Positions 2,554-37,204 of a stretch of 37,204 nt of DNA are shown here, piece after piece. Position numbers and translations under genes: made by a program. The DNA is from Bacteroidota bacterium (GTDB taxonomy: Bacteria; Bacteroidota; Rhodothermia; Rhodothermales; JANQRZ01): positions 1 to 37,204 of the forward strand of contig JBCDKT010000037.1 of the NCBI GenBank assembly GCA_038746285.1, in the 5' to 3' direction. Each line of letters starts with the position of its first letter. Positions within the stretch are counted from its first letter, which is position 1. The notes under the pieces are model-generated. The model did no database searches, was not told where the DNA came from, and worked only from the letters and a program-made list of their open reading frames with translations.

Positions 2554-4326
2554 ATGCTCGGACTCGCGCCTCTCGACTGGGCCGTCGTCGCCGTCTACGT
2601 CGCGGGCGTGACGTGGCTCGGGCTGCGGATGAGCCGGGGCGTAGCCACGACGGGCGACTACTTCATGGGCGGGCGTCGGTTCGGGCGGCTCCTGATGGTG
2701 GCGCAGGCGTTCGGGACGGGGACGCGGACGAGCCAGGTGGTGGCCGTCTCCGGCGGGGCGGCGCAGTTCGGGCTTGCCGCGATCTGGTTCCAGTGGATCT
2801 ACCTCTTCTCGACGCCCTTCTACTGGCTCCTCGCGCCGGTCTACCGGCGGCTGCGCTACCTCACGATCGGCGACTTCTTCGAGCGGCGCTACGGGGCACC
2901 CCTGGGCGCGGCCTACGCCGTCATCGGACTGCTCTACTTCGCCGTCACGACGGGCGTGATGCTCAAAGGGGCTGGCTTGACTATCTCGGCGGTGACGGGC
3001 GAGGCCGTGAGCGTTGAGGCGGCGGTGTTCGCCCTCGTCGCGTTCTTCGTCGCCTACAGCCTCTTCGGCGGCCTCGTCGCGGCGGTGACGACGCAGGCGG
3101 TGCAGGGGCTGTTCATCCTCGTGCTCTCGTTCCTGCTCATCCCGTACGCGCTCGCGGCAGTCGGCGGGTTCGAGGGCGCGCGGGCGGCGCTCCCCGAGGG
3201 GACGGCCTGGTTCAGCCTCGTAGCCGCCGAGGAGGTGACGCTGTTCTACGTCGTGATGGGCGTCGTCAACGCGCTCGTCGGGGCGACGGTGCAGCCGCAC
3301 CACATGGCGATCAACGGGGCGGGCAAGGACGAGATCGCGTGCCGGACGGGCTGGACCTACGGCAACTTCGTCAAGCGCTTCGCCACGCTCGGGTGGGCGC
3401 TCTCGGGCGTGCTGATCGCAGCGGCGCTCCCGGCGTTTGCGGGCGGGGCGAGCCGGGGGACGCGCGAGGCGGCGTTCGGGATCGCGGCGCGCGAACTGCT
3501 CCCGGTGGGGCTGACGGGGCTGCTCGTCGCGGCCGTCGCGGCGGCCGTCGTGGCGGGGGCGAGCGCGTTTATGGTAGGCGGCTCGGCGCTCTTCACGCGC
3601 AACGTGTGGCGGCGCTACGTCCGGCCCGAGGCCCCCGAGGCGCACTACCTCGCCGTCGGGCGCGGGGCGTCGGGGGCGGTCGTCGCCATCGGGGTCGTGG
3701 CCGCGCTCGCCCTCCCGAGTGTGATCGGCGGGCTGGAGCTGCTGTGGAAGCTGATGGCGTTTCTCGGGATTCCGTTCTGGGCGGCGCTCTTCTGGCGGCG
3801 GGCCAACCGCTGGGGCGCGTGGGCCGCGCTCGCGGTGACATTCGGCTGCCTCCTCGTCACGAGCGGGCTGGCGTGGAGCTTCCCGGCCCAGGTCGCGCTC
3901 TACCTCCCGGCGGGGATCGCGACGCTCATCGCCGTCAGCCTCGCCACGCGGCCCGAGCCGGAGGCCGACCTCAACGCGTTCTACTCGCTCCTCAACACGC
4001 CCGTCGGCGACGAGGAGCGCCTTGCCGAGGCGGGTATCGAGGTGATCCACGAGACCGAGCCGGCGGCGGTGCCCGTCGGCGCACCTGGCACGGAGAGCGC
4101 GGTCACGCCGAGCGTCCCCGCCGCGCCCGGCCCCCCGCCCCTCTTGGACGATGCCCCGGCGGCGCGGCGCGGTGCGAGCCTGCTCCTCGTCAACCTGCCT
4201 CGCCTCGGCGACGGCTTCTCGCTCACTCGCTACCGGACGGACCTCCGCGGGTTCGCCCTCGCGTGGGGGATCGTCGTCGGCCTGCTCGCCCTCGCTTACG
4301 GCGTCGTTGCGTGGGCCGGCGGGTGA
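2554..4326 (+). CDS. Sodium:solute symporter family (SSS) transporter
   Basis: The 590-residue polytopic membrane protein begins LDWAVVAVYVAGVTWLGLRMSR, then GDYFMGGRRFG, the standard N-terminus of SSS (SLC5-like) sodium-coupled transporters, in which the first helix is followed by a D/E-Y-F-L-A/G-GR motif. About 13-14 hydrophobic segments can be counted. A long soluble loop (about residues 470-555, Pro/Ala/Glu-rich) precedes the final helix, making it longer than the roughly 500 residues common in the family. The substrate cannot be read from sequence; sugars, amino acids and organic acids are all possible. The start is the ATG directly after octamer array 2; there is no Shine-Dalgarno. The last 42 codons exist again as a diverged copy at 14968-15093, on the far side of the accessory island, so this 3' end marks the island boundary. 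Confidence 0.92.
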   Translation: MLGLAPLDWAVVAVYVAGVTWLGLRMSRGVATTGDYFMGGRRFGRLLMVAQAFGTGTRTSQVVAVSGGAAQFGLAAIWFQWIYLFSTPFYWLLAPVYRRLRYLTIGDFFERRYGAPLGAAYAVIGLLYFAVTTGVMLKGAGLTISAVTGEAVSVEAAVFALVAFFVAYSLFGGLVAAVTTQAVQGLFILVLSFLLIPYALAAVGGFEGARAALPEGTAWFSLVAAEEVTLFYVVMGVVNALVGATVQPHHMAINGAGKDEIACRTGWTYGNFVKRFATLGWALSGVLIAAALPAFAGGASRGTREAAFGIAARELLPVGLTGLLVAAVAAAVVAGASAFMVGGSALFTRNVWRRYVRPEAPEAHYLAVGRGASGAVVAIGVVAALALPSVIGGLELLWKLMAFLGIPFWAALFWRRANRWGAWAALAVTFGCLLVTSGLAWSFPAQVALYLPAGIATLIAVSLATRPEPEADLNAFYSLLNTPVGDEERLAEAGIEVIHETEPAAVPVGAPGTESAVTPSVPAAPGPPPLLDDAPAARRGASLLLVNLPRLGDGFSLTRYRTDLRGFALAWGIVVGLLALAYGVVAWAGG

Positions 4327-4347
4327 AACCACCGGCCATGCCAGTCT

Positions 4348-4369
4348 GTACGTAGGCCATGTGACGTAC
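4348..4369. promoter_or_regulatory. Inverted repeat upstream of xre-res, candidate autoregulatory operator
   Basis: GTACGT (4348-4353) and ACGTAC (4364-4369) form a perfect 6-bp dyad with a 10-bp spacer, centred about 35 bases before the antitoxin ATG. Xre-family antitoxins with a helix-turn-helix usually repress their own operon by binding such dyads. The role here is inferred from position and symmetry only. Confidence 0.5.
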
Positions 4370-4393
4370 CGCGTCAAGCCATCTGCTGACCTC

Positions 4394-4813
4394 ATGCCGA
4401 CTCCCTCCGTCACCCGTACCGTTGCTGGCTTCGCCGACTGGGACCTTCCTACCGCTGCCCACCGCATCGAGCAGGGTCTCGCTTCGACCACGCTCGACGG
4501 GATCAAAGAGACGCTCGGCCTTTCCAGCCAGGAGCTGGCCGACGCCCTTCTGCTCTCCCCGCGCACGATCTCGCGTAGGCGGACTGCCGGGGAGCGCCTC
4601 ACGCCTGCCGAATCCGAACGGGCCTACCGCCTCGGTCGTCTTGCCGCCCTCGCTGTGGGCACCCTCGGCGGCGTCGAGCACGCTCGGGCGTGGATGCGTG
4701 AGGAGAACTTCGCACTCGGCGACGTTCGCCCGCTCGACCTCGCCCGAACCGAGCCGGGCGCGCGACTCGTCGAGCGACTCCTCAGACAGATCCCTCACGG
4801 GATACCGGTCTAG
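4394..4813 (+). CDS. Xre/MbcA/ParS-family antitoxin (DUF2384)
   Basis: The 139-residue cytoplasmic protein should neutralise the RES toxin encoded 6 bases downstream and repress the operon. It shows the family layout: an N-terminal helical HTH region (LDGIKETLGLSSQELADALLLSPRTISR in two consecutive helices, about residues 34-60), then the DUF2384 toxin-binding segment (RLGRLAALAVGTLG, AWMREENFALGDVRPLDLART, GARLVERLLRQIPHGI). The ending, where the C-terminal helix covers the toxin active site, is typical of these antitoxins. The ATG at 4394 gives a protein of normal family length. A GTG at 4361 is in frame, but it lies inside the candidate operator dyad and would add an atypical tail. The pair sits at the left edge of the accessory island, as expected for a mobile toxin-antitoxin module. 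Confidence 0.9.
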   Translation: MPTPSVTRTVAGFADWDLPTAAHRIEQGLASTTLDGIKETLGLSSQELADALLLSPRTISRRRTAGERLTPAESERAYRLGRLAALAVGTLGGVEHARAWMREENFALGDVRPLDLARTEPGARLVERLLRQIPHGIPV

Positions 4814-4819
4814 GATGCC

Positions 4820-5281
4820 GTGATCGAGGTCTGGCGCATCACCGCCCCGGAGTACGCCGACACCGCCTTCTCGGGCGAAGGAGCGCGGCTATGGGGCGGA
4901 CGCTGGGGCAGCGAAGGGCGTCGCCTCGTCTACACCGCCGGGTCGCTTTCGCTGGCCCTACTCGAAGTCCTCGCGGGCGCGGGCGACCGTCACCGGCTCC
5001 GGGGGTACCTCGCCGTCAAAGCCTCCTTCGACGAGCATCACCTCGACACGCTCGATACGGCTTCGCTACCGACCGGGTGGGACGCACGGCCCTATACTGG
5101 CGTGTCCCAAGCCGTTGGCGACCGGTGGCTTGACGAGCAGTCCTCGCTTGCGCTGCGTGTGCCGAGCGTGGTGGTTCCGACGGAGTGGAACGTGCTGCTC
5201 AACCCGGAGCACCCGGCGTTCGAAGAGATCGTATTCGATGTCCCGACAGCAGCCCCGTTCGACCCGCGCTTGCTTGGGTAA
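4820..5281 (+). CDS. RES-domain toxin (predicted NAD+-degrading)
   Basis: The 153-residue protein has the three conserved residues that name the RES fold: Arg28 (GGRWG), Glu49 (LALLEVL) and Ser116 (VPSVVVPTEWNVLLNP). Tyr38 and Asn124 of the pocket are also present. RES toxins of Xre-RES modules resemble ADP-ribosyltransferases and deplete cellular NAD+; this activity is family knowledge. The start is GTG at 4820, six bases after the antitoxin stop, consistent with translational coupling. Length matches intact family members, so the module appears functional. Its last 35 codons recur as a diverged relic at 9810-9911, showing that a second RES toxin once lay nearby. Confidence 0.92.
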   Translation: MIEVWRITAPEYADTAFSGEGARLWGGRWGSEGRRLVYTAGSLSLALLEVLAGAGDRHRLRGYLAVKASFDEHHLDTLDTASLPTGWDARPYTGVSQAVGDRWLDEQSSLALRVPSVVVPTEWNVLLNPEHPAFEEIVFDVPTAAPFDPRLLG

Positions 5282-5293
5282 AGCAGAGTCAGG

Positions 5294-8200
5294 TTACCGG
5301 ATGAGGGTGAGGCGGTGGGTCTCGACGTAGTCCGGCGTCCTCATCCGCACCACGTAGACGCTGCTGGCGAGACGCGAGGCATCGAACGTTGCCTGGTAGC
5401 GCCCTGGCTGTTGCTGCCCGTCTGCGAGCAGTGCCACGCGCCGACCGAGGGCGTCGTAGACTGCGAGCCGGACGTGGCCCGCTTCAGCGAGGTCGTAGCG
5501 GATCGTCGTCGAGGAGGTGAACGGGTTGGGATAGGCCGGGTAGAGCGCAGGCTCCGTCGGCAGCGCTACCGACAGCGGTGCAGTCTCAATCTCAGCGGTC
5601 TCGGCTTCGTCGAGTGCCGCCTCGTCGCCGGTGCCACGTGCGGCGGCCTCGGCACCGAAGGGCAGCCCGGTGGCGAGGTCCACGACCGGCCAGTCTGCCA
5701 CGTCGAAGACGAAGTCGTCTGTCTCGGGCGCGCTGCTCGGTGCAACGTCGGGCTGCAGGTCGGGCTGAGCCGACGGCACTGTCTTGGCCTCAGCCGCGGC
5801 CTCAATGCCGCTCGTGGCCTTGAGTTGTGCGGTGGTGCGAGGAGCCGATTCTTCCGGCGTACCGGTGGCGAGTGCTGCACTCGACGTTGGGCGAGCAGCG
5901 GGCGGGAGCTTAGCGAAGGGGAAGCTGTCGCTCTGCTCGGTCGCCGGGAAGGTCGACCCGACTCGGGCGGTGTAGGTGTACGTCCCCGCCGGAGCGAACG
6001 CCGGGACGCTCTGGCGCAGCGTGAACTGGCGCGTCGCACCTGCCTGGACCGTGAGACGGACCGGACCGGCGACGGGGCCGTAGGGGCTGCCGTTCGGCAG
6101 CGTCACGTCGGTCCAGCCGTCGAAGGTGAGCGGGCCGTCGGTGGGGTTGGTGAGCGTGACGCGGTAGTCGAAGGTGCCGCCGCCCGCCGGAATCTCGATG
6201 GGCGAGCCGACCGGCTCGATGGAGACGCTGAGACCAGCCTGCGGCGGGGCCTCGCCGACCGAGAACCGGAGCGTGTCAGCCACACCTCGGTAATTCAGGA
6301 CGGCGAGCGTTGAGCCTTCGCCGACGGCCCGGAACGCTTTGAACTCCGGCTCGAAGGCGACGACCGAAGCGTCGAGGCCAGTGACGAGGAGCGCGTCCTC
6401 GTTCTCGCCCGGCTGCGCGAGAAACGTCGGGAAGACGGCCTCGTACTCCGGCCGCACTTCGTCCCCCACTGTGAGCAGGTGAAGATCGTCGTCCACCGAG
6501 AAGGAGACAGGCGAGGTGCCAGGATCAACGTAAACCCGCTGACTTGCCGAGGCAAGCACGACGCTGTCGGGATAAGCGAATGTGGCGAGAGCGAGCACGG
6601 TGACGGAGTCCAGCACGGCTCCGGTCACGGGCAGCGCGAGGTTCACCGTAGGAGCCACTGCCGAAACGCCTATGGACTCCTGCTGGAACAACACATTGAG
6701 GCTCACAAATCCGGTCGTGTCGGCGACCTGAATTGAAACGGGAAGCACGTCGCCAACGGTCACGCCTGTACCCGACACCGGAGCCGAGAGCGAGAGGCGA
6801 CCCGGGGCCGAACGAAGCGGTAGTTGGTCTCTTCCGCGTGCAGTCGGGGCATTACCATAAGGCTGAGCCGGGAAACCGGCCCGGTAAGCATCGTTGGAAG
6901 CCGGGTAGTTGAGCAATTCATCGACGTTGTGCCCGACTTCTGTGTTGCCCGTGACGTAGTTGCTGGATGTCGTAGAGGAGTGAGAGACACCGTCGTAGAC
7001 AGTAGTTGCTACGTCAGCCCTGCCGAGTCCGGCTAGCTGACTCGGAAGCGCGACGATGACATCACCATTTGTGGCGAATTCGTCTTCCCCATGTTTCTCG
7101 CCAAAGGCGTCAAGGATCTGAATCAGTTCCTGATCGCCTACTCCATAGATGTCCAGATAGGCGTCTGCAATTTGCAAACGCAGGTGCTCTTCTTCCCATT
7201 CCAACGTTTCCGCAAGGACCGGAGAAATGAGCGCCGTCATAAGCGCCTTGATAACCGTCTCTGCTCTGAAAGACTCCGTTTGATTCGTCGGATAGTCTTC
7301 GAGGCCAGGTGCGATGTCGCCACCGATGATATGTACGGCAGGTGTCGCGGTTGCCTCCAAACCGTACCCCCTACCGTTAGCCTGTATATGCTCTATCGCA
7401 GCAGTCGGGCAGGCGGATCTGTCGAATGGTATGCAGAACTCATAGAAATAGCTGAGACCTATAAACCTCATGAAGTACAACAGCTCCTGCACGCCTGAGC
7501 CAAAGACACCGTTGATCTCGTCTGTGATGTCAACGAGCATATTTGCTAACTCAGTCCCATTGTGTGGAGTGTCCAGAGTGACCGCCCGGTAGACATAGCC
7601 CTTGTTGTAGTTCGCCAGCGTCCTGTAGTCCGGTGCGCCAGAAGGCACGTCAATCGCTGCTCGAAGCATCAGCCCCCCCATGCTGTGGCCAACGTAGTCC
7701 ACGAGGTTAGCAGCGTAGCCCTGCTCGCGGAGCAGGCTCACAGCAGACGAGAACGACTTTCCGCCCTGCCCTCGTGGTGGCCCAAGCAACTTCTCGGCGT
7801 TCTCGTCGAACCCGCCGCCCGGAGCCATCTGTGGGACAAGGCGGGCGCGGAACCGAGGGTCGTCCTTGAACAGCTTGCCGTTCCGGCCCCGCAGATCGTC
7901 CCAGTCATCAGGACCTCCATTGAAGCCATGAACAAGCATGAGCGGCGGGCGCACGACTTCGATGGGCCGAAGAAGCGGCTCCGTGGAACAGGGAATAGCA
8001 GAGAATGAAGGAGTGATGGTCACGAGCACCGTTCGGCCTGCTCGGTCTACGTCCTCTGGCAACCGGTTGAAGTCGTCCGGAGCACGGTACCAGAACCAGA
8101 ACTCACCGTCTGCACCCGGCAGCGGCCCGAATGGGTCTAGCGTCGTGCGCTCGCCAGTGCTGGCCGCGTCGCTCCAGCCAGTCGTCTCACTCAGGTCTCC

Positions 8201-9337
8201 GACCCTCTTCACGCGTCCCAGCGTTTGCGGCGTGGTGCTCGAAGGTGAGAAGGGGTCGGAAAGAGCTACCGAGACGCTCTGCACGTCGCAGCCGTCGTCA
8301 GGCAGGCGGTCGGTGACCTTGACGAGAAAACGGGCTACGCCGTCGGCTGCAACGCCCAAAACAGGGCTGTCGCGGTCTTCGTAGTCCTCGTAGCTGTAGT
8401 CCCAGACAAACTCGGCGTCGATTCCCGAGGCTGACTCGTCGGTCACGCTGAACGGGCCGGAGATGTCGAAGCTGGACGGGGTGAGTTCATCAGTCACCCG
8501 GATGCGGTAGTCCGTACTGCTTACAGCGTTCGAAATCTCCACTGTCTCGCTGATCGTCTTGATCTCGTCATAGATCCCGATGCCATCTCTGTACCCTAGC
8601 GTGGTCGGCCAAGTAGCCCCTCCGTCTTCTGAGAGATCGATCCGGTAGCGGAAACTTCGGAAGACGGAGTTGACGAAGCTCTCTGGGTTGCCGATGCGCA
8701 GCATCTGGTCTTCCCACTCAACGAGCACCCTGCCACCGAAGGAGCGGTAGCCGCCGTCTTGACCTCCGCTGCCGATCCGTGCATTTTCACCAGGCGCAGG
8801 CTTGGTGATGCGGAGCGCGAACGTCGGCTCCGGACCCTCTTCGACGCGGAAGTTGATTGCGGGCGAGTAGCGGCCCGTCGCCTCGTCGCGGGCGACGACG
8901 CTGTAGGTACCGGACGGGTCTGCGGTATTGGCGGAAAATGAAGTTGTGAACTCACCATCTGGAGTTGCAGAGAAGTGAGAGTCAATCGCATCGAAGCCGG
9001 AAGGCCCTATGATTGAGAGAACAACATCACCACTCGCCGTATACCCGCTTCCGCCAATCGTGACCGACTCACCCGGACTGAGCAGTGCCGTCGAGAGCGC
9101 GAGTTGGGGCACGGCCACGTCCGCCGTCACCGAGAACGACCGCGACGCCCAGTAGCTCGTCCCGCCCTCGTCGTCGACGGCGCGGACCCGGAAGACGTAG
9201 GAGCCGACGGCGAGGCCGGTGAACGTGCGCGAGGTCGCGGTCGTCGTGCCGGTCTGGTCGTTAAGCGCCCACTCGTAGCCGATGATGGAGCGCCCGCTCT
9301 GGCGCGGGTCGTCCGATCCGTCCCAGGCGAACGTCAC
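5294..9337 (-). pseudogene. T9SS-sorted Ig-like/alpha-beta hydrolase (lipase) protein, 5' end lost
   Basis: The 1,347 residues run without interruption but lack a beginning. There is no signal peptide; the frame stays open only to 9430, and the best start codon is a GTG at 9337 inside an Ig-like/fibronectin-like domain. Layout: Ig-like domains about 1-170; beta-rich region 170-460; alpha/beta-hydrolase core with oxyanion motif HGFNGG at 470 and nucleophile elbow GHSMGG (Ser552); PHNGTEL near 591; further beta domains; type A T9SS sorting domain at about 1265-1347 (LYPAYPNPFTSSTTIRYDL, ending HRLTLIR). An intact relative would be a secreted or surface esterase or lipase. Upstream sequence switches abruptly at about 9395-9411 into a fragment of an unrelated gene, so this is a recombination-truncated allele. 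Without a signal peptide the product cannot reach T9SS. The gene converges with the RES gene. Base use between about 6500 and 9100 is visibly more AT-rich than in housekeeping genes of this window. Confidence 0.8.
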
Positions 9338-9404
9338 CGATGAAGTGCTGACCGGGCCGCTCGGGCCGGAGGTGATGACGACGACGGGGGCGGTGTTGAG
9401 GTAG

Positions 9405-9734
9405 ACCGGCCAGATGCTCGAGACGTTCGTCTACGGAGAACTCCGGCGGCAGGCGAGCGGGTACGAGGACCCCGTCGCCTTCTACCACCTCCGCGACCGC
9501 GACGGGGTCGAGGTCGACCTTGTGCTCGAGCGGTCAGGCCGCTACATCGCGGGCGTGGAGGTCAAGGCGTCGGCCACCGTCCGGGCGAGCGATTTCCGCG
9601 GGCTCCGCAAGCTCCAGGAGGCCGTCGGCGACCGCTTCGTCGCAGGCGTGATCCTCTACGACGGCGAGACCGCGCTTCCGTTCGGTGAACGCCTCTGGGC
9701 TGTTCCCGTCGGCGGCCTCTGGGAAGCGCGGTAG
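9405..9734 (+). pseudogene. DUF4143 C-terminal fragment of an AAA ATPase
   Basis: The fragment encodes about 109 residues: TGQMLETFVYGELRRQ, then FYHLRDRDGVEVDLVLER and GVEVKASATVRASDFRGLRKL. This is the conserved C-terminal DUF4143 domain (PD-(D/E)XK-like nuclease fold) of archaeal/bacterial AAA ATPases of roughly 380-420 residues. The N-terminal ATPase part, including the Walker motifs, is absent. An in-frame TAG at 9402-9404 precedes the first recognisable family residue. The break coincides with the place where the opposite-strand lipase gene loses its 5' end. A full-length DUF4143 ATPase would suit a mobile or defence island. The remnant is unlikely to be active. Confidence 0.85.
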
Positions 9735-9809
9735 CATCCTGCTCCGAGCCGTGAAACCGTAGACAGGGAATGCCTCTGAATCCGACCGGCGATCCCCGGC
9801 TCGCACACC

Positions 9810-9911
9810 TCCGAGTGGAACGTGCTGCTGAATCCGGAGCATCCGGCGTTCGGCGAGATCGTGTTCGGTGCTCCGACGGGAACTCCGCTCGACCCGCGCC
9901 TGCTCCGATGA
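9810..9911 (+). pseudogene. RES toxin C-terminal relic
   Basis: Thirty-three codons plus a stop, reading SEWNVLLNPEHPAF, then GEIVFGAPTG and DPRLLR. They align without gaps to the final residues of the intact RES toxin (TEWNVLLNPEHPAFEEIVFD to DPRLLG). Many third-position differences mark it as a diverged paralogue. Everything upstream, including the catalytic Arg and Glu region, is missing. Confidence 0.85.
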
Positions 9912-9923
9912 AGGGGAGTCGTG

Positions 9924-10003
9924 TCATCGTATGAGTGTGAGGCGGTGGGTCTTGACGTAGTCTGGCATTCGCACGACGTAGACACCGCTGGCAGCCCTGA
10001 GCC
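9924..10003 (-). pseudogene. T9SS sorting-domain tail relic
   Basis: On the minus strand this reads LRAASGVYVVRMPDYVKTHR then LTLIR and a stop. It matches the end of the lipase at 5294 (ASSVYVVRMRTPDYVETHR, LTLIR). It converges with the RES relic exactly as the intact pair converge at 5281/5294, so 9810-10003 is a diverged copy of the 5176-5370 junction. The remaining 10004-10055 holds nothing recognisable. Confidence 0.8.
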
Positions 10004-10055
10004 GTGGGTGGTGGCTGAGCACGAGAACCTTTGGACCAATGACGAAATGTAGCCG

Positions 10056-13000
10056 TCAGAACTGCACGTCGTAGTCCGTGGCGTTCAGGTTTGTCAGCGC
10101 AAGCATGCCGTGACGCTCGGCGACTGTTCCGGCGCTCTGCATGTCTGCCAGGGCACCAGCGACGGCTACGCGCATCTGCTCGCTCGTCTGCCCGAACCCA
10201 AACATCCGGCACACTTCGAGCGCGAGATCCTCGGCCGCGATTCCGAATGAGGAAGAGATCACCTCCGCGATTGCCGCTCGCACCTCCTCCGGCGCGATGA
10301 AATCAAACTTGCGAGACCCCGCCGACAGATCGCTCCGCTCGCGGACGGGCACATCAGCCCGCTTTTGCGAAGAGAGGTAGAGAAAGTCTCCGCGCCGGAC
10401 GATGCCGTTCCGCGCCTCGGCGAGAAGAGTAGCACTCTCAATCGCTTTTCGAATACGACTGCCGAGTCGACTCACTCCGCTGGCATCGAGTATGCGCCGC
10501 GCAACCTCATCGAAGTGGACGGGGCTCTCCACCCGTACGACATGACCAACATCCCCAGCGAGTATGTGCTTCGGCACTTCGTGAAGAGGCTCCAAGTGTC
10601 CGCGAAGTTTTGCCTTCACGTACGGCTCCGTCGGCACGGGCGCGCGCTTCTCAAGCGGCTTGTCGGCTCGTTCGAGCGAGGGCATATCGACCGTGCGGCG
10701 AGGTGGTGAGCGGTCCACCGGCTCGGCCTTTGCGCGCTCGATGGCAGCGACCACCCGCTTCACCTCGCTCTGCGGGTACCGGAACCAGTTGGTACTCCAG
10801 ATTCGGTGGATCCGCCAACCAAGACCTTCGAGCACAGACTGCCGAATGCGGTCGCGGTCCCGAGCGGTGCGGGCGCTGTGGTACGTCGCCCCATCACATT
10901 CGATGCCGAGGAGATAGCGTCCCGGTCGCTCCGGGTCCACGACCGCGAGGTCGATCCGGAAGCCGCCGACGCCGATCTGGTACTCGACGCGGTACCCGAG
11001 CGTGCGGAGGGCCTTCGCCACCGCCACCTCGAATGGGGAGTCCGGCTCCCGTCCCGTCGGCTTGTCCATCTCGAGCACCCCCGTTTCGGCGTACTGGAGG
11101 TACCGTTTGAAGGCGGCGACCCCGCGAGCGTCAGTTCGTCCGAGGTCGATGTCGTCGGCGCGGAGGTTCGTAAATACTTCGCACCGGCGGCGTGCCCTCG
11201 AGATCAGCACGTTGAGCCGCCGCTCGCCACCCTCGCGGTTGAGCGGCCCGAAGTTCATCGACACCGCGCCGTGCTGGTCCCGCCCGTAGCCGACACTGAT
11301 GAAAACGACGTCGCGTTCGTCGCCCTGCACGTTCTCGAGGTTCTTAACATCAAACCGCTCGATTACGTCCCTGCGGTTAGCGAAGTAATTTAGTTCGGGG
11401 TCTTGCAGGCATAACAGGTCTACTTGATCTCGCACCTCCTTCTGCTGGGCTTGGCTGAACGTCGCCACCATCAGAGAGAGCTCCGGCGTCGATTTCGCAT
11501 GCCTCATTACGGCCTTTGCGACAGCCTTTGCCTCCTTCCGGTTCGAGCGGCGTCCCCCCTTGTCGTAGGTGGTCTCGGGAAGGTGATGGTAGACGAGGCC
11601 GACCTCTGCCTTCCCGGCGTCGGGGCTGGGGAAGATCACGAGTCGGTTCTCGTAGAACTCCTGGTTTGAGACGGCGATGAGGGATTCGTGGCGGCTACGG
11701 TAGTGCCAATTGAGCATACGCTCGGGGGCCCGCTTTGACTTGAACAGTTCGAGGATGCTCTCGATGTCGGCGGTGTCGGAGAAGTCCTCGTCGTCGGCAT
11801 CGCCGACCACGCTGTCGAAGAAGCTCGTCGGAGGCAGCTGCTTGCTGTCGCCCACGACGACTGCCTGCCGACCGCGAAGGATCGCGCCGAAGGCATCGAC
11901 CGGTTTCACCTGGCTCGCTTCGTCGAACACGACGAGATCGAAATCGACCGTTCCGGGCGGGAGGTACGTCGCGATTGACATCGGACTCATCATGAACACA
12001 GGCTTGATCGCCTGCACGGCCCGGCCAGCGACGGTCATGAGCTTGCGGATAGGCAGGTACCGCCGCTTCTTCCCAAACTCGTGGTAGAGCACGCCTAGTT
12101 GTCCGGCAGCAGAGGCTGCCGTCCCATTGCGCGGGAGGTTCTGCCAGTGTTCGAGGGCGAGTCGGACACGGTTATAGGCGAGGGCGATCTCGTCGCGGTC
12201 GATGAACCGGCGGAGCGCTTCGCCGTGGAGTGCGCTGTTGAACCGGGCAAGTGCTGGACGCTCGGTGAAGGCGACATCGACGAGCGTCGAGTACCAGACG
12301 TAGTCGAAGGCGTCGGAGAGATGCGTCGCTGCGTGCTCCCAGTTCGTGGCTAGACCGGCGAAGAGAATGAGGCTGTCTTCGGCGAACGCATCGACTTGGT
12401 GGTTGAAAGTCACGATCTCCTGAAGTCTCGCAGCCTGTTTCGCCCATCCCTTCGCAAGAGCCGCGAGCACATGCAGAGGCTGCATGTCAATAGTCTCGCC
12501 CTCGCCGTACCGTCGCTCGGCCACGAACGCCACGATGTCTACCGCCTTCTGCATACGCTCGCCGAACGACTTCAGCCGCCCTTCCACGTTCTCGGCAAGC
12601 GGCTCCAGCGCATCGAGGTCGGGGCCACCCGCGAGAAACGCGACAAGGCCGCGGGGCACCTTGCCGGAGGCTACGTCCCCATGCAGCGAGGTCATCCACG
12701 ACGCGATGCGCTCCAGCACCGCCCAGTCCGACGCCGCGCCTTCCCACTGCAGACCGAACAGCCCCGACCCGAGCGACGCGTAGGCATCGATCTCTTTCCG
12801 AAGCCGCTGGGCCTCCCGGATGCCATCGACGATGGCGAGGCGCTCGTCGTGCCCCGTCGGTATCGGCGTTTCGATAAGCCCCGCAAGCCGACTCTTCGCA
12901 CGTCGCCAGTCCCCAATGAAGATCCGGTACCACTTCTCGCCGTGAGCTTTGAGGTGCTGGCGGGTCTCCAGCACGTCCTCTTTCCATGCCTCGGGAATGA

Positions 13001-14933
13001 GCACCTCGTTGTACTCTGCCCGGACGGCATCGTAGGCCGTCCCCACGCGCACGAGTTCCGCCACGTCCGAGCGCCGCGCGTGCCACTCACCGGCATCGAC
13101 CCGAACGCCCCGGAGGTCCGGTGCCGCGAGGGCGCGGCGTGCCGCCCGAGTCAGCACGTCCGCGTCGGCCGGCGTTTCTGCATCGAGGTGGAGGAAGTCG
13201 CTGAGGGGCCGAACGGCTTCAGAGAGTGATTCGATAGAGGTCGAGGCTTCACTGGCAGTGCGTTCCACCGACTGTTGCTCTGATGGCAGGAACGCCTTCC
13301 GGTTGCTTCCCCAGAAAGGGTGCTCGGTAGGGCGACCTATGTCGGCCACGAGCGTCTGCATTTGGACCACCTTCGCACGCCGCCGAGCACAGTCCGATGC
13401 CGTCCACGACTCCATGTCTCGGTCGGACGCTCCGGGTGGCTCGACCCCATTCCACCGCTGCCGCTGAAGGAGCAACTCGCCATAGGCATCGTAGGGCCGG
13501 ACGCCGGTCTCCCCGATTGACTCATAGACGGCTGCGGCATATGCGTTGAGTTGATCCCTCGCGTCGATGAGCACATCGAGGTCGGTATGCAGTGCCTCCG
13601 ACATGGGGCGACCGAGATTGATCGTCCGCTCCAACTCTGCGAGCAGTTTTTTCTTGCTCGTCTTGTGGCTATGAAGTTCGAGGCACGCATCGCCGAGATG
13701 AACCCCATTGAGTCGCCGCTTGACCACTTCGAGCGCCGCCATCTTCTCGGCCACGAACAATACGCTCTTCCCCTGCCCTATGGCCTCGGCGATGATGTTC
13801 GTGATGGTTTGCGACTTTCCTGTCCCCGGCGGCCCCTGGATGACTAGGTTGTTGCCACGCTTGACGTCTAGGAGCGCGAGCGTCTGCGAACCGTCTGCAT
13901 CGACGACTTGGTGGACTTCGTCGGGGTGTAGGTGCCGGTCGAGATGTTCCTCATCGCTGAGCCGGTCGGTCGCTGGCGGGAAGCCGTCGCCGAGAATGGC
14001 CCCGATGATGTCGTGGTCGAGCGGGCTGGTGCCGTCCGGCCACTCGGTCACGTCGAGGTCGTTGTACATCAGCAGCTTCCCAAACAGGAAGAAGCCGAGG
14101 TGAACAGCCTCCCGGTCTACTCTCCATCGAGGCGTCTCATCGATGACGTCCCCAATCCGGTCGAAATAAGCCTCGATGTCGAGTTCTGCCTCCGGGTCGG
14201 GCAGTGGAAGGGAAAGCCCGAACTCAGCCTTGAGCTTGGCCTGCAATGAGAGGTTGCCACCGACCTCCTCATCAGTGTAAGAGAGCCGGAAGCGAGCACG
14301 CACGTCTGTCCGTGTCAGTTCGACCGGAACGAGAAGGAGCGGTGCCCGACGCCGCTTGTCGCTCGACAGATCCTCGTACCATTCCAGCATTCCAAGCGCG
14401 AGGTACAACACGTTGACGCCCTGCTCCTCCACGAACGTCCGTGCAGCATAGAACGTCGCGAGCAGCCGACTCTGAAGCTTACTTGGTGTGTAGGGCGTCT
14501 GGAGCCGACTGTCCGTGTGCCGCGAGGCAGTTCCCTCCTCGCCCGCCTCTTCGGGCTGAGTGAGCAACGCCGATAGGTCGCCCTGATATTCGTCGTTCTC
14601 GAAGAGCGACGGCTCGAACAGTTCTTCTTCCTCGTCGAAGTCTGGGATGGGCAAGAACGACATCAGCCGCCTTTCGCCGACGAGGACCTCGTAGACCTGT
14701 GCCGGAAGTTCGTCGGTGATATCGAGCCCCCGCGCCTTGAAGGTTTGATAGTTGAGCAGGGGGTTGCGAAGCCCGAGGTCTAGAAGCTCACGGCGGGCAG
14801 ATTCGAGTTCGCTCCGGATCGTATTGCGAGTGGCAGACGACAAGGTTGAAACTGAGTCTTGGAGTAGCTTAGGCAAGAACGGAACGCCAGACGCTCGGGG
14901 AGCGCAAACATAACCGACAGGCGAATACCGCAT
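10056..14933 (-). CDS. DUF4011-SF1 helicase-DUF559/Vsr-like nuclease-DUF3320 defence-type protein
   Basis: This is a giant protein of about 1,625 residues. Order of parts: N-terminal DUF4011 (ELESARRELLDLGLRNPLLNYQ, then PTTLYLALG-type strands); UPF1-like superfamily I helicase with Walker A GPPGTGKSQT near residue 366, Walker B/II FDEASQVKP near 1003, VVGDSKQLPP, and motif VI LNVLISRARRR near 1240; an MTES_1575/DUF559-type endonuclease domain of the Vsr/PD-(D/E)XK fold (FRIDLAV, GIECDGATYHSA, near 1330-1400); and a C-terminal DUF3320 region. The same order is reported for single-gene anti-phage proteins (the Hhe type, from memory). It should bind DNA, translocate with ATP and cut. The start is uncertain. 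The ATG at 14933 is used; the open frame continues upstream, but only through the symporter-tail relic and a tRNA. A TTG a little inside, before PKLLQDSVSTLSS, is possible. All motifs are intact, so it is probably functional. Confidence 0.85.
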   Translation of the reverse strand: MRYSPVGYVCAPRASGVPFLPKLLQDSVSTLSSATRNTIRSELESARRELLDLGLRNPLLNYQTFKARGLDITDELPAQVYEVLVGERRLMSFLPIPDFDEEEELFEPSLFENDEYQGDLSALLTQPEEAGEEGTASRHTDSRLQTPYTPSKLQSRLLATFYAARTFVEEQGVNVLYLALGMLEWYEDLSSDKRRRAPLLLVPVELTRTDVRARFRLSYTDEEVGGNLSLQAKLKAEFGLSLPLPDPEAELDIEAYFDRIGDVIDETPRWRVDREAVHLGFFLFGKLLMYNDLDVTEWPDGTSPLDHDIIGAILGDGFPPATDRLSDEEHLDRHLHPDEVHQVVDADGSQTLALLDVKRGNNLVIQGPPGTGKSQTITNIIAEAIGQGKSVLFVAEKMAALEVVKRRLNGVHLGDACLELHSHKTSKKKLLAELERTINLGRPMSEALHTDLDVLIDARDQLNAYAAAVYESIGETGVRPYDAYGELLLQRQRWNGVEPPGASDRDMESWTASDCARRRAKVVQMQTLVADIGRPTEHPFWGSNRKAFLPSEQQSVERTASEASTSIESLSEAVRPLSDFLHLDAETPADADVLTRAARRALAAPDLRGVRVDAGEWHARRSDVAELVRVGTAYDAVRAEYNEVLIPEAWKEDVLETRQHLKAHGEKWYRIFIGDWRRAKSRLAGLIETPIPTGHDERLAIVDGIREAQRLRKEIDAYASLGSGLFGLQWEGAASDWAVLERIASWMTSLHGDVASGKVPRGLVAFLAGGPDLDALEPLAENVEGRLKSFGERMQKAVDIVAFVAERRYGEGETIDMQPLHVLAALAKGWAKQAARLQEIVTFNHQVDAFAEDSLILFAGLATNWEHAATHLSDAFDYVWYSTLVDVAFTERPALARFNSALHGEALRRFIDRDEIALAYNRVRLALEHWQNLPRNGTAASAAGQLGVLYHEFGKKRRYLPIRKLMTVAGRAVQAIKPVFMMSPMSIATYLPPGTVDFDLVVFDEASQVKPVDAFGAILRGRQAVVVGDSKQLPPTSFFDSVVGDADDEDFSDTADIESILELFKSKRAPERMLNWHYRSRHESLIAVSNQEFYENRLVIFPSPDAGKAEVGLVYHHLPETTYDKGGRRSNRKEAKAVAKAVMRHAKSTPELSLMVATFSQAQQKEVRDQVDLLCLQDPELNYFANRRDVIERFDVKNLENVQGDERDVVFISVGYGRDQHGAVSMNFGPLNREGGERRLNVLISRARRRCEVFTNLRADDIDLGRTDARGVAAFKRYLQYAETGVLEMDKPTGREPDSPFEVAVAKALRTLGYRVEYQIGVGGFRIDLAVVDPERPGRYLLGIECDGATYHSARTARDRDRIRQSVLEGLGWRIHRIWSTNWFRYPQSEVKRVVAAIERAKAEPVDRSPPRRTVDMPSLERADKPLEKRAPVPTEPYVKAKLRGHLEPLHEVPKHILAGDVGHVVRVESPVHFDEVARRILDASGVSRLGSRIRKAIESATLLAEARNGIVRRGDFLYLSSQKRADVPVRERSDLSAGSRKFDFIAPEEVRAAIAEVISSSFGIAAEDLALEVCRMFGFGQTSEQMRVAVAGALADMQSAGTVAERHGMLALTNLNATDYDVQF

Positions 14934-14965
14934 GCGCCGATACCTTCTAAAATCTGCTTCGACTT

Positions 14966-15093
14966 GCGCCTCACCGACGGCTTCTCGGTCGCCCGCTACC
15001 GGACCGACCTCCGCGGGTTCGCGCTCGCGTGGGGGATCGTCGGCGTCCTGATCGCCCTCGCCTACGGCGTCGTTGCGTGGGCCGGAGGGTAGA
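14966..15093 (+). pseudogene. Symporter 3'-end relic (second copy)
   Basis: The plus strand encodes RLTDGFSVARYRTDLRGFAL, then AWGIVGVLIALAYGVVAWAGG and a stop. This matches the last residues of the SSS symporter ending at 4326 (RLGDGFSLTRYRTDLRGFAL, AWGIVVGLLALAYGVVAWAGG). DNA similarity is high but clearly below identity. No start or upstream symporter sequence is present. With the intact 3' end it forms a pair of same-orientation repeats bracketing the island. Confidence 0.9.
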
Positions 15094-15099
15094 AAGGCC

Positions 15100-15209: not shown

Positions 15210-15219
15210 GGTCAGAGGA

Positions 15220-15251
15220 GAAAACTACGGCCCGACGCCCACCGCCGTCAA
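15220..15251 (-). promoter_or_regulatory. tRNA-Thr promoter, Bacteroidota type
   Basis: On the minus strand, TTG (15251-15249), a 21-bp spacer, then TAGTTTTC (15227-15220). This matches the Bacteroidota TTTG-N19..22-TAnnTTTG pattern. It ends 11 bases before the tRNA 5' end. The tRNA-Pro promoter has the same spacing. Confidence 0.6.
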
Positions 15252-15283
15252 GCAGCGGAACCGCGCCGGGCCGGGGATAATCT

Positions 15284-16048
15284 ATGAACGGCCCTACCGC
15301 CTACGCCGTGCTCACCCTCCGCCACGTATCCAAAGCCTTCGGCTCGACGCACGCACTCCGCGACGTGAGCCTCACGGCAGCGTCGGGACAGACGACGGCC
15401 CTCCTCGGGCCGAGCGGATGCGGGAAGTCGACCCTGCTGCGGCTGATGATCGGGTTGCTGCGGCCGGACAGCGGGACGGTGCAGTTCGAGGGCGAGGCCG
15501 TGACGCCGCAGAGCGCGGAGCGGCTGCGCCGCCGGATGGGCTACGTGATCCAGGACGGCGGCCTCTTCCCCCACCTCACGGCCCGCGAGAACGTGACGCT
15601 GATGGCCCGCCACCTCGGCCAGCCGAGCGAGCAGATCGAGCGCCGCCTGCGCGACCTCGCCAGCCTCGTCAAGCTGCCTCTGGGCGCGCTCGACCGCTAC
15701 CCGGTGCAGCTCTCCGGCGGGCAGCGGCAGCGCGTCGGCCTCGTGCGGGCGCTCTTTCTCGACCCCGACGTGCTCCTCCTCGACGAGCCGCTCGGCGCGC
15801 TCGACCCGCTCATCCGCGCCGACCTCCAGGACGACCTCCGCGCCATCTTCCGCGACCTCGGCAAGACGGTCGTCCTCGTCACGCACGACGTGGGTGAGGC
15901 CGCCTACCTCGGCGACACGCTCGTCCTCCTCCGGGACGGCGAGGTCGTGCAGACCGGCTCGCTGAAGGACCTGGCGGAGCGTCCTGCCCGTCCGTTCGTC
16001 GAGCGTTTCCTCCGCGCCCAGCGCAACCCGGCCTTCGACCGCGCATGA
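15284..16048 (+). CDS. Quaternary-amine (glycine betaine/choline-type) ABC importer ATPase
   Basis: The 254-residue ATP-binding subunit energises uptake through the fused partner encoded next. Visible motifs: Walker A GPSGCGKST (42-50), Q-loop Gln90, signature LSGGQRQR (143-150), Walker B VLLLDEP (163-169), D-loop GALDPL, H-loop His201. Sequence style and partner match the OpuBA/OsmV/YehX group for osmoprotectants. The C-terminal CBS domains found in many OpuA-type ATPases are absent. The start is the ATG at 15284. Its last four bases overlap the ATG of the next gene (ATGA), indicating translational coupling. It begins 75 bases from tRNA-Thr, transcribed divergently from it. Confidence 0.93.
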   Translation: MNGPTAYAVLTLRHVSKAFGSTHALRDVSLTAASGQTTALLGPSGCGKSTLLRLMIGLLRPDSGTVQFEGEAVTPQSAERLRRRMGYVIQDGGLFPHLTARENVTLMARHLGQPSEQIERRLRDLASLVKLPLGALDRYPVQLSGGQRQRVGLVRALFLDPDVLLLDEPLGALDPLIRADLQDDLRAIFRDLGKTVVLVTHDVGEAAYLGDTLVLLRDGEVVQTGSLKDLAERPARPFVERFLRAQRNPAFDRA

Positions 16049-17511
16049 CGCTCGTCCTCATCCTCGCGCTCCTCCTCCTCCCTGCCGACACGACGGTCGT
16101 CGTCGGCTCGAAGAAGTTCACCGAGTCGGTGATCCTCGGTGAGGTCGCGGCGCAGAAGCTGCGGGCCGAGGGCATCGACGCCCAGCACCGGGCCGAGGTC
16201 GGCGGGACGCGCGTGCTGTGGGAGGCGCTCCGGCGCGGCGACCTCGACGCGTACCCCGAGTACACGGGGACGATTGCCCAGGAGATTCTAGGCGGTGCGG
16301 CGCTTCCCGATGCCTCTGCGATGCGCGACAGCCTCGCCCGCTACGGGGTTCGGATGAGCGAGCCACTGGGGTTCAACAACACCTACGCTATTGGGATGCG
16401 CGAGGCGGAGGCCGAGCGGCTCGGCATCGAGGCGATCTCCGACCTGCGTGACCACCCCGACCTGCGGATCGGGTTTACGAACGAGTTCATGGACCGGCCC
16501 GACGGCTGGCCCGGCCTCCGCCGCGCCTACGCACTCCCCCACCGCGACGTGCGCGGGCTCGACCACGACCTCGCCTACCAGGGCCTCGAAGCCGGGACGA
16601 TTGCGGCGATGGACCTCTACTCGACCGACGCCGAGATCGCCTACTACGACCTCCGCGTGCTCCGCGACGACCGGGGCTTCTTTCCCGACTACCAGGCCGT
16701 GCTCCTCTACCGCGCCGACCTGCCCGCCCGGGCCGCCGCTGCGCTCAGCCGGCTCGAAGGCACGCTGTCCGAGGAGCGCATGACCGCGCTCAACGCCCGG
16801 GCGAAGCTCGACCGCGTGCCCGAGGCGCTCATCGCGGCGGGGTTCCTCGAAGAGCGGCTCGGCATCGCCGACGAGATCGTGGTCGATGGGTTCTGGGCGC
16901 GGCTGTGGGCGCGGACGAAGGAGCACCTCGGCCTCGTCGGGCTGTCGCTTCTGGCGGCGATCCTCGTGGCGGTTCCGCTCGGCGTGGCGGCGGCGAAGGT
17001 GGGGTGGCTGGAGCAGCCCCTCCTCGGGATCGTCGGGGTGATCTACACGGTCCCGTCGCTGGCCCTGCTCGTGTTCATGATTCCGCTCCTCGGCATCGGC
17101 GCGGTGCCGGCAATGGTGGCGCTGTTTCTCTACAGCCTCCTCCCGATCGTCCGCAACACCCACGCCGGGCTCAAAGGCATCCCCGGTCCGCTCCTCGAAT
17201 CGGCCGAGGCGCTCGGCCTGCCCGCCCGCGCCCGGCTCCGGCTCGTCGAACTCCCCCTCGCCGCACCGACGATCCTCGCCGGGATCAAGACGAGCGCCGT
17301 GCTCAACATCGGTACCGCGACGCTCGGCGCGCTCATCGGCGCGGGCGGCTACGGGCAGCCGATCCTGACCGGCATCCGGCTTGACGACACCGCGCTGATC
17401 CTCGAAGGGGCCGTGCCGGCGGCCCTCCTCGCCCTCGCCGCGCAGGGCCTATTCGAGATCGTGGAGCGCGTCGTCGTCCCGAAGGGGCTGCGGCTCGACT
17501 CGGCAGTGTAG
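16045..17511 (+). CDS. Fused substrate-binding protein-permease of quaternary-amine ABC importer
   Basis: The 488-residue protein joins two functions. Residues 1-16 are a hydrophobic leader (LVLILALLLLPAD). About 17-275 is an OpuBC/OsmF-type binding domain (VVVGSKKFTESVILGEV, GGTRVLWEALRRGDLDAYPEYTGT, LGFNNTYAIGM). About 285-480 is an OpuBB-type permease with five or six helices (GVIYTVPSLALLVFM, coupling-loop ESAEALGLPARARLRLVELP). The binding domain must face the periplasm with the permease in the inner membrane. Here the binding domain comes first; in well-known fused systems such as lactococcal OpuABC the permease comes first. Likely role: osmoprotectant uptake. The substrate (betaine, choline, carnitine or ectoine type) is not certain. 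It forms a two-gene operon with the ATPase. Confidence 0.92.
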   Translation: MTLVLILALLLLPADTTVVVGSKKFTESVILGEVAAQKLRAEGIDAQHRAEVGGTRVLWEALRRGDLDAYPEYTGTIAQEILGGAALPDASAMRDSLARYGVRMSEPLGFNNTYAIGMREAEAERLGIEAISDLRDHPDLRIGFTNEFMDRPDGWPGLRRAYALPHRDVRGLDHDLAYQGLEAGTIAAMDLYSTDAEIAYYDLRVLRDDRGFFPDYQAVLLYRADLPARAAAALSRLEGTLSEERMTALNARAKLDRVPEALIAAGFLEERLGIADEIVVDGFWARLWARTKEHLGLVGLSLLAAILVAVPLGVAAAKVGWLEQPLLGIVGVIYTVPSLALLVFMIPLLGIGAVPAMVALFLYSLLPIVRNTHAGLKGIPGPLLESAEALGLPARARLRLVELPLAAPTILAGIKTSAVLNIGTATLGALIGAGGYGQPILTGIRLDDTALILEGAVPAALLALAAQGLFEIVERVVVPKGLRLDSAV

Positions 17512-17521
17512 TGGGGGCAAA

Positions 17522-17559
17522 GAAAAAGCCGGCCCCCGCTGCAAAGCGAGAGCCGGCCT
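17522..17559 (-). terminator. Terminator copy 2, after tRNA-Pro relic
   Basis: On the minus strand, a GCCGGC stem with inner pairs CTCGCT/AGCGGG-like, followed by TTTTTCTTT. It is a near-duplicate of the terminator at 17891-17930. It may also serve plus-strand transcripts ending at 17511. Confidence 0.75.
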
Positions 17560-17563
17560 CTGT

Positions 17564-17637
17564 CGGGGTGGCCCCGCAGGGCGGGGTAAACTCCGATTTG
17601 AACCCACGACCTTCCCGCTCCGGCGGGACGCGCTACC
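17564..17637 (-). pseudogene. tRNA-Pro 3'-part relic with inserted inverted-repeat arm
   Basis: Read on the minus strand: D-loop GGTAGCGCG, then TCCCG-CCGGAG-CGGGA where the anticodon arm should be (six-base loop, not seven), then GGTCGTGGGTTCAAAT identical to tRNA-Pro, then an insertion of about 23 bases (GGAGTTTACCCCGCC and onward), then acceptor CCACCCCG. It cannot fold as a normal tRNA. The GIY-YIG stop codon touches its first bases. Confidence 0.75.
17570..17595. repeat. Inverted repeat, right arm (tRNA-Pro/GIY-YIG cassette)
   Basis: The 26-base arm starts GGCCCCG and ends GGGGTAAACTCCG. It is the inverse of 18179-18203 with a 13-base perfect core and a near-match elsewhere. It contains its own short palindrome (CCCCG/CGGGG). 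It interrupts the T-arm/acceptor region of a tRNA-Pro relic. Confidence 0.8.
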
Positions 17638-17885
17638 TACCGTTCGGACAGGAGCAGGAGTACACGCTCTGGACTCTTCAGACGCTTGAGCGTACGTTCG
17701 AAGCGCATTGCCTCGCTGCGCGTCTCGAAAGGCTCTGTGTGGAGCAGCGTCCACGGTCCGCGCCCACGCGTGGACCGAGTCTGCCCAGCATTGTGTTCGC
17801 GGAGGCGGCGTTCTAGATTCTGCGTGTGGCCGATGTACAGGCGGCCCGAGGATTCGGACCTCAGCACGTATACGAAGAAAGGCAC
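17637..17885 (-). CDS. Small GIY-YIG endonuclease downstream of tRNA-Pro
   Basis: The 82-residue protein is essentially one GIY-YIG nuclease domain: FVYVLRS (GIY strand), LYIGHTQNLERRLREHN (YIG strand and catalytic Arg helix), GPWTLLHTEPF, and SEAMRFERTLK, which carries the metal-binding Glu. It is the free-standing UPF0213/YhbQ-like type common in Bacteroidota. The chosen start is GTG at 17885. The frame stays open upstream, but only through the terminator and the tRNA itself (giving a false GSALRSGRRGRGFKSRHPDS leader). The stop TAG lies at the first bases of a tRNA-Pro relic. The gene is flanked by two copies of a tRNA-Pro 3' part plus terminator, which suggests insertion into or beside tRNA-Pro. 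Whether it acts as a homing-type nuclease is unknown. Confidence 0.85.
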   Translation of the reverse strand: MPFFVYVLRSESSGRLYIGHTQNLERRLREHNAGQTRSTRGRGPWTLLHTEPFETRSEAMRFERTLKRLKSPERVLLLLSER

Positions 17886-17890
17886 GGGCC

Positions 17891-17930
17891 AAAGAAAAGG
17901 CCGGCCCTCGCTGTAAAGCAAGAGCCGGCC
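17891..17930 (-). terminator. Intrinsic terminator of tRNA-Pro (copy 1)
   Basis: On the minus strand, GGCCGGC and GCCGGCC (17930-17924 and 17905-17899) form a stem with additional inner pairing, followed by TTTTCTTT. It lies five bases after the tRNA 3' end. It would limit readthrough into the GIY-YIG gene. Confidence 0.85.
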
Positions 17931-17934
17931 GCTG

Positions 17935-18172
<238 letters not shown>

Positions 18173-18178
18173 ACCGGG

Positions 18179-18203
18179 CGGAGTTTACCCCGGCACCGGG
18201 GCC
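18179..18203. repeat. Inverted repeat, left arm (tRNA-Pro/GIY-YIG cassette)
   Basis: The 25-base arm starts CGGAGTTTACCCC and ends CCGGGGCC, the inverse of 17570-17595. On its outer side is a further acceptor 5' strand of tRNA-Pro (minus-strand CGGGGTGT, 18211-18204). Together the two arms and their flanks therefore read as the two halves of one acceptor stem separated by the cassette. Confidence 0.8.
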
Positions 18204-21173: not shown

Positions 21174-21246
21174 ACTCGCCCACTCGCCCACTCGCCCACT
21201 CGCCCACTCGCCCACTCGCCCACTCGCCCACTCGCCCACTCGCCCA
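21174..21246. repeat. Octamer tandem array 3, leader of lipoprotein gene
   Basis: Perfect (ACTCGCCC)n, about 9.1 copies. The final A of the array is the A of the ATG start codon. The 12 bases before it (TGGCTTTTCTTG) are the same as those before array 4 at 37101. Confidence 0.97.
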
Positions 21247-37100: not shown

Positions 37101-37204
37101 ACTCGCCCACTCGCCCACTCGCCCACTCGCCCACTCGCCCACTCGCCCACTCGCCCACTCGCCCACTCGCCCACTCGCCCACTCGCCCACTCGCCCACTC
37201 GCCC
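37101..37204. repeat. Octamer tandem array 4 (window end)
   Basis: Perfect (ACTCGCCC)n, 13 copies to the last base of the window. It is preceded by TGGCTTTTCTTG as in array 3, and by a -7-like TAATTTTC at 37080-37087. It presumably forms the leader of a plus-strand gene beyond the window. Confidence 0.95.

Follow-up and report, generated by a model that had tools for sequence, protein, structure and literature searches.

Several catalogued or described systems come close to the gene considered here. PDC-S37 is a phage defence candidate class in PADLOC-DB. A domain analysis published in Biol Direct in 2013 (PMC3710099) found in the MTES_1575 protein a Vsr-family nuclease together with wHTH domains overlapping DUF3320, within one protein. 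P. aeruginosa has a DUF4011 gene in its core genome, at the flank of a defence hotspot (PMC10250203). Hachiman couples a sensor of damaged DNA, HamB, to a nuclease, HamA, which HamB frees (PMC12278908). In the literature covered, a search on PDC-S37, ProA, DUF3320 and DUF4011 found no experimental paper, and no text links DefenseFinder 'Prometheus' to the name ProA, of which it was considered as a possible source.

The window, i.e., the whole stretch of 37,204 nucleotides that was analysed, carries on its minus strand a gene that joins a helicase to a nuclease (Table 1). With a probability of about 0.68, this helicase-nuclease gene reached the genome by horizontal transfer and provides antiphage defence through a single protein of the PDC-S37/ProA family, which would use its helicase as a sensor and its nuclease as an effector. 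This reading derives from the PDC-S37 and ProA scores, the accessory distribution, the foreign GC3, the flanking repeats, the defence-rich loci of relatives, the nuclease fold and the selection acting on the frame. It is from these that we infer an antiphage function in this genome; the immediate neighbours of the gene in the window are not validated defence genes.

Table 1. Features of the window around the helicase-nuclease gene.
Feature	Position	Strand	Evidence or remark
Left direct-repeat copy, 3' end of the symporter gene	4201..4328	+	blastn self-comparison, 89.9% over 129 bp
Putative inserted or foreign segment (10.6 kb)	4329..14966	.	flanking repeats, GC3, no match at this place in the same-genus genome G001
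Xre/ParS antitoxin	4433..4813	+	NF049845, 100.8 bits; PF20432, PF09722
RES/ParT toxin	4820..5281	+	NF049844, 149.4 bits; PF08808
DUF4143 ATPase C-terminal remnant	9414..9734	+	PDC-S01, 316-419 of 422
RES C-terminal remnant	9813..9992		decayed
Helicase-nuclease gene, PDC-S37/ProA family	10056..14840	-	probable real extent, TTG start, 1,594 aa
DUF3320, first of two predicted C-terminal winged helices	10446..10586	-	Pfam 8.7e-14; AlphaFold2 model
MTES_1575 Vsr-fold nuclease	10740..11033	-	Pfam 1.2e-39; AlphaFold2 fold matches; invariant E, D, D
Helicase C-terminal part (HYRSRHESLI, VQGDERD, RRLNVLISRAR)	11166..11759	-	AAA_12 3.1e-13; conserved motifs
Helicase motifs II-III (DEASQ, GDSKQLPP), Upf1-like SF1	11823..11945	-	AAA_11 1.8e-14
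Helicase N-terminal part with Walker A	13710..13859	-	AAA_19 1.3e-7; GPPGTGKS at 13812-13835
DUF4011 domain	14232..14789	-	Pfam PF13195 5.3e-42; AlphaFold2 N-terminal model without PDB match
31-codon upstream extension to ATG 14933	14841..14933	-	probably not coding or not conserved; N-termini of relatives
Right direct-repeat copy, 41-codon fragment of the symporter 3' end	14967..15095	+	blastn self-comparison
tRNA-Thr(CGT) adjoining the segment	15135..15209	-	

The frame from 10056 to 14933 is intact and uninterrupted, and Pfam finds in it DUF4011, AAA_11, AAA_12, MTES_1575 and DUF3320, in this order. The profile search proposed by the first-pass annotation thus recovers every domain that it named, i.e., the four parts of an intact DUF4011-helicase-Vsr-like nuclease-DUF3320 protein. 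The helicase part is split, its N-terminal Walker A part lying apart from motifs II-III and the C-terminal part. In an alignment of 66 rows that includes the protein itself, both the helicase motifs (GPPGTGKS, DEASQ, GDSKQLPP, HYRSRHESLI, VQGDERDV and RRLNVLISRAR) and those of the nuclease (PFE, FRIDLAV, CDG and DRDR) agree with the relatives. Judged from its sequence, the helicase is of the Upf1-like SF1 type, and the nearest solved sequences to it are SMUBP2 and SEN1.

The nuclease domain scores 134.7 bits with the MTES_1575 Pfam model (cut-off 38.2). Residues E38, D64 and D83 are invariant in its alignment of 36 rows, in which the E of 'GIECDG' varies. In the AlphaFold2 model built for the last 361 residues (mean pLDDT 84), this domain matches the catalytic domain of I-Bth0305I (3r3p_A; Z 12.3, rmsd 2.6 A, 97 aa) and Vsr (1cw0_A; Z 10.7, rmsd 2.3 A, 100 aa), both above the Z 8-9 that winged helices reach as background in that match list. 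Two predicted winged-helix units follow the nuclease, and many winged helices of the PDB match them at Z 8-9. This picture agrees with the domain analysis of 2013. Searched against the PDB, the model of the N-terminal DUF4011 part (mean pLDDT 77) drew no match, Foldseek giving nothing under E 0.3 and VIA-align no Z above 2.4.

The longest mechanical open reading frame reaches 15194, only by reading through the tRNA-Thr gene. The first-pass annotation began the gene at ATG 14933; the frame is indeed open to that codon, but TTG 14840 is probably the real start since most short-form relatives begin at the equivalent position, i.e., at residues 33-37 of the protein read from ATG 14933. Their usual start corresponds to LSSATRNTIRSELESARRELLDLG in the helicase-nuclease and to MSRADTIRRELDAARRELLDF in the closest relative found, that of genome G013, which shares 67% identity. 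Comparison with this relative gives a dN of 0.256 and a dS of 1.42 (dN/dS of about 0.18), with differences of 0.25/0.18/0.53 at the three codon positions. Since these fall mostly at third positions, the codon pattern argues that the frame is under purifying selection and not a product of chance. The genome carries one copy of the gene.

Curated models decide the family. The best fit is PADLOC PDC-S37, with 1942.5 bits over the full length (profile positions 4-1545 of 1550), about the same score as for the G013 relative (1928) and an Adhaeribacter one (2039). The NCBIfam equivalog NF058533, 'anti-phage protein ProA', is passed marginally, with about 1508 bits for a cut-off of 1500. Its alignment runs from 346 to 1902 of 1903 model positions, so that the ~345 N-terminal ones are absent from the helicase-nuclease. 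Because this alignment begins at position 346, the protein is not filed as a full ProA ortholog, and on these profile matches it is classed as a PDC-S37/ProA-like short form. The proposal of a single-gene antiphage system with this domain order is thus supported by the PADLOC and NCBIfam models.

The composition and borders of the region point to horizontal acquisition. The helicase-nuclease gene has a GC3 of 0.765, and the whole genes of the segment, xre, res and the T9SS gene among them, range from 0.74 to 0.80, versus 0.91-0.95 for the symporter, the ABC transporter, valS and other flanking genes. The direct repeats lie beside the tRNA-Thr gene and bracket this low-GC3 segment, which contains, besides the helicase-nuclease, the xre-res pair, a T9SS protein and the DUF4143 and RES remnants. 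It would have been inserted at the 3' end of a gene, and the 129-bp repeats agree with this. None of the segment's genes that were scanned was recognised as an integrase.

A classical tRNA attachment site was considered and rejected: the flanking repeat is the 3' end of the symporter gene, not that of the tRNA, and the stretch downstream of the tRNA is conserved in the same-genus genome (G001). In that genome, tRNA-Thr adjoins tRNA-Pro, 35 bp apart, and unrelated genes follow. In the window, an ABC transporter made up of an ATPase and a fused substrate-binding/permease protein, glycine-betaine-like, lies between the two tRNAs (15210-17933). A 93-bp stretch that overlaps the end of tRNA-Pro is tandemly repeated with 99% identity (17982-18179). 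For the sodium:solute symporter gene (2554-4326), the genomes of the same genus and the same family offer distant matches only (29-31%). The 8-bp unit CCCACTCG forms perfect arrays at four places, 1-119, 2443-2549, 21174-21246 and 37101-37204; assembly breaks at such arrays, present at both ends, may explain the contig ends.

The neighbours had been described as decayed. This holds for the DUF4143 and RES remnants, but not for xre-res, the symporter, the ABC transporter or valS, all of which are whole. At 79% identity, the RES remnant (9813-9992) repeats the 3' end of the intact res together with the stretch downstream (5183-5368), and this suggests a second xre-res copy, since lost. The T9SS-sorted protein (5294-9430; 1,347 aa, with no obvious N-terminal signal in the open frame) is encoded head to head with the DUF4143 remnant, which it abuts near 9,337-9,414; this junction is probably a rearrangement breakpoint that cut both genes short. 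As for the defence-island context also claimed, it is reasonable for the relatives but thin in the window, where the only possible defence company is the xre-res pair, for which PADLOC gives no match, and the DUF4143 remnant.

The loci of relatives are richer. In G013, the relative is flanked by a gene for a phage integrase and by one for an MmeI-type IIG restriction enzyme, beyond which comes DUF3800; in G092, it comes after type I hsdR-hsdM-hsdS-like genes, from which a single other ORF separates it. On plasmids, relatives adjoin type I-E CRISPR-Cas (pSR118 of Salinibacter ruber), a SIR2-domain protein (Hymenobacter), two DUF262 proteins (Vibrio) or DUF4297-HerA (Paraburkholderia). At 16 chromosomal loci, the 142 neighbour proteins match 39 PADLOC models at E <= 1e-30, the best including GajB of Gabija (1e-223), DarG (1e-126), AbiEi/AbiEii, MkoC, a reverse transcriptase and SpbK, while 136 neighbours of valS or ileS in the same genomes, taken as a control, match five, none better than 2e-58. 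PADLOC models overlap, so that 39 versus five counts models and not systems. Some matches may come from genes without a role in defence: DndA/SspA could be hit by a housekeeping cysteine desulfurase and Cas12f/u by TnpB.

Two other arrangements were seen near relatives. In two genomes of one Rhodothermales genus (L036 3104-12825 and L149 1230-10949), the relative is followed by sbcD, a fragment of an MNT-like nucleotidyltransferase and sbcC, a repeated order that may hint at a functional linkage with SbcCD. On pSR118 (L106 2049-7832), a 1,927-aa ATP-binding protein whose only match is AAA_22 is encoded near the relative and the CRISPR-Cas genes.

The gene is accessory. A strong match (E <= 1e-60) is found in 23 of the 245 genomes of the class, its own included, and among 60 near genomes the sole same-genus and same-family (G002) ones are without it, G002 giving distant helicase matches only. 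Many Bacteroidota carry full-length relatives, which are also present in other Rhodothermales and on a Salinibacter ruber plasmid. The first-pass annotation expected a Bacteroidota/Rhodothermota copy to widen the known range, but such copies are plentiful. The short form (1,550-1,600 aa) is present in Bacteroidota, Rhodothermota, Chloroflexota, Planctomycetota, Acidobacteriota, Cyanobacteriota and Pseudomonadota, and on plasmids of halophilic archaea. A search of a phage collection gave two weak records only.

In the tree, drawn with a midpoint root, the helicase-nuclease pairs with the G013 copy (100/100) within a Rhodothermales group of eight members (99/90). A different clade (96/87) unites other Rhodothermaceae copies with proteobacterial ones, on long branches that call for caution. 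The separation of Rhodothermales copies into distinct clades agrees with repeated transfer. It should be added that the wider superfamily is not always mobile, since in one Rhodothermaceae genus the gene occupies the same place in three genomes and since the DUF4011 gene of P. aeruginosa is core.

Other explanations have to be weighed against the antiphage one. The first-pass annotation called the protein Hhe-type. That it is a true Hhe ortholog is very improbable: the domain order is the same and homology extends over most of the helicase-nuclease part, but the NCBIfam Hhe model (NF042953) gives 1081.7 bits for a cut-off of 2000 and the PADLOC one 803.6 bits in three pieces, versus 2743.8 and 2444 for a Klebsiella plasmid Hhe taken as a control (1143 with ProA). 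The Klebsiella Hhe pair also lies outside the clade that holds the helicase-nuclease in the midpoint-rooted tree. Because of the curated-model scores, read with this control, the label Hhe is replaced by PDC-S37/ProA. The gene could also have a housekeeping role in DNA repair or RNA surveillance, as a helicase-nuclease of the Upf1/SMUBP2 type that is kept patchily, and the kinship of the helicase with SMUBP2 and SEN1, the sbcC-sbcD genes adjoining the relatives of two genomes (G054 and G215) and the fixed site in some lineages would fit such a role. We regard this as quite unlikely, given the foreign composition of the gene, the 222 genomes of the class, the same-genus one included, that are without a match at E <= 1e-60, and the 77.9 bits obtained with the housekeeping model TIGR00376 (IGHMBP2-type) for a cut-off of 348.9. 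A housekeeping helicase shared by all relatives, the outcome that the first-pass annotation had set against its own proposal, is thus not what the class presents.

Foreign DNA other than that of phages might be the target. The protein would then act mainly against plasmids, conjugative elements or transforming DNA, by the same route from helicase to nuclease; a Vsr-like nuclease joined to a translocase fits any foreign DNA, and relatives stand beside restriction systems. This is unlikely, since many plasmids, some of them conjugative, themselves carry relatives and since the curated models name the family anti-phage. As to a relic, i.e., a gene that looks intact but is silent, in an island under decay, the neighbours that are cut short would agree with it, but 1,594 codons without a stop, the conservation of all motifs and the low dN/dS make it scarcely credible.

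Under the antiphage reading, the Upf1-like SF1 helicase would be an ATP-driven sensor or translocase, acting on a structure in the nucleic acid of the invader that becomes exposed as the phage replicates, and DUF4011 and the C-terminal winged helices would contribute to substrate recognition or to autoinhibition. Engagement would free the Vsr-like nuclease, the effector, which would nick or cut DNA and thereby stop the phage or the cell. Such helicase-sensor/nuclease-effector logic is found in Hachiman, which is no more than an analogy. More speculatively, and with rather low likelihood, the short PDC-S37 branch could work in a mode distinct from that of Hhe, DUF4011 being a new trigger-recognition domain that gates the nuclease.

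The gene adds a well-formed member, whose protein is probably functional, to a known defence family that is catalogued but mechanistically dark, and corrects its label. Such genes being common in this group already, it is an ordinary member. The short branch, the 67% identical G013 copy and the Bacteroidota copies provide material for asking what the trigger is and which role DUF4011 plays.

Among known systems, PDC-S37 has the same domains as the helicase-nuclease and is of the same length class, about 1,550-1,600 aa, and no difference was found. The long ProA forms of the Robinsoniella type (about 2,000 aa) fill model positions 2-1903 with 1903 bits, whereas the helicase-nuclease is without the N-terminal ~345. 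The PDC-S37/ProA family is a sister group of Hhe, with which it has in common the order DUF4011, SF1 helicase and MTES_1575 nuclease; the helicase-nuclease differs in being about 300 aa shorter, in its separate clade and in reaching about half of the Hhe cut-off, and the Klebsiella Hhe tested gave no DUF3320 match at E 1e-3. The MTES_1575 protein (HEPN-transglutaminase-helicase-Vsr-2 wHTH; PMC3710099) likewise has a helicase, a Vsr nuclease and a C-terminal wHTH overlapping DUF3320, but it is named with HEPN, a domain that Pfam did not detect in the helicase-nuclease. Finally, the Vsr endonuclease and I-Bth0305I, both EDxHD nucleases, share the nuclease fold but are stand-alone mismatch or homing nucleases without a helicase fusion, unlike the helicase-nuclease.
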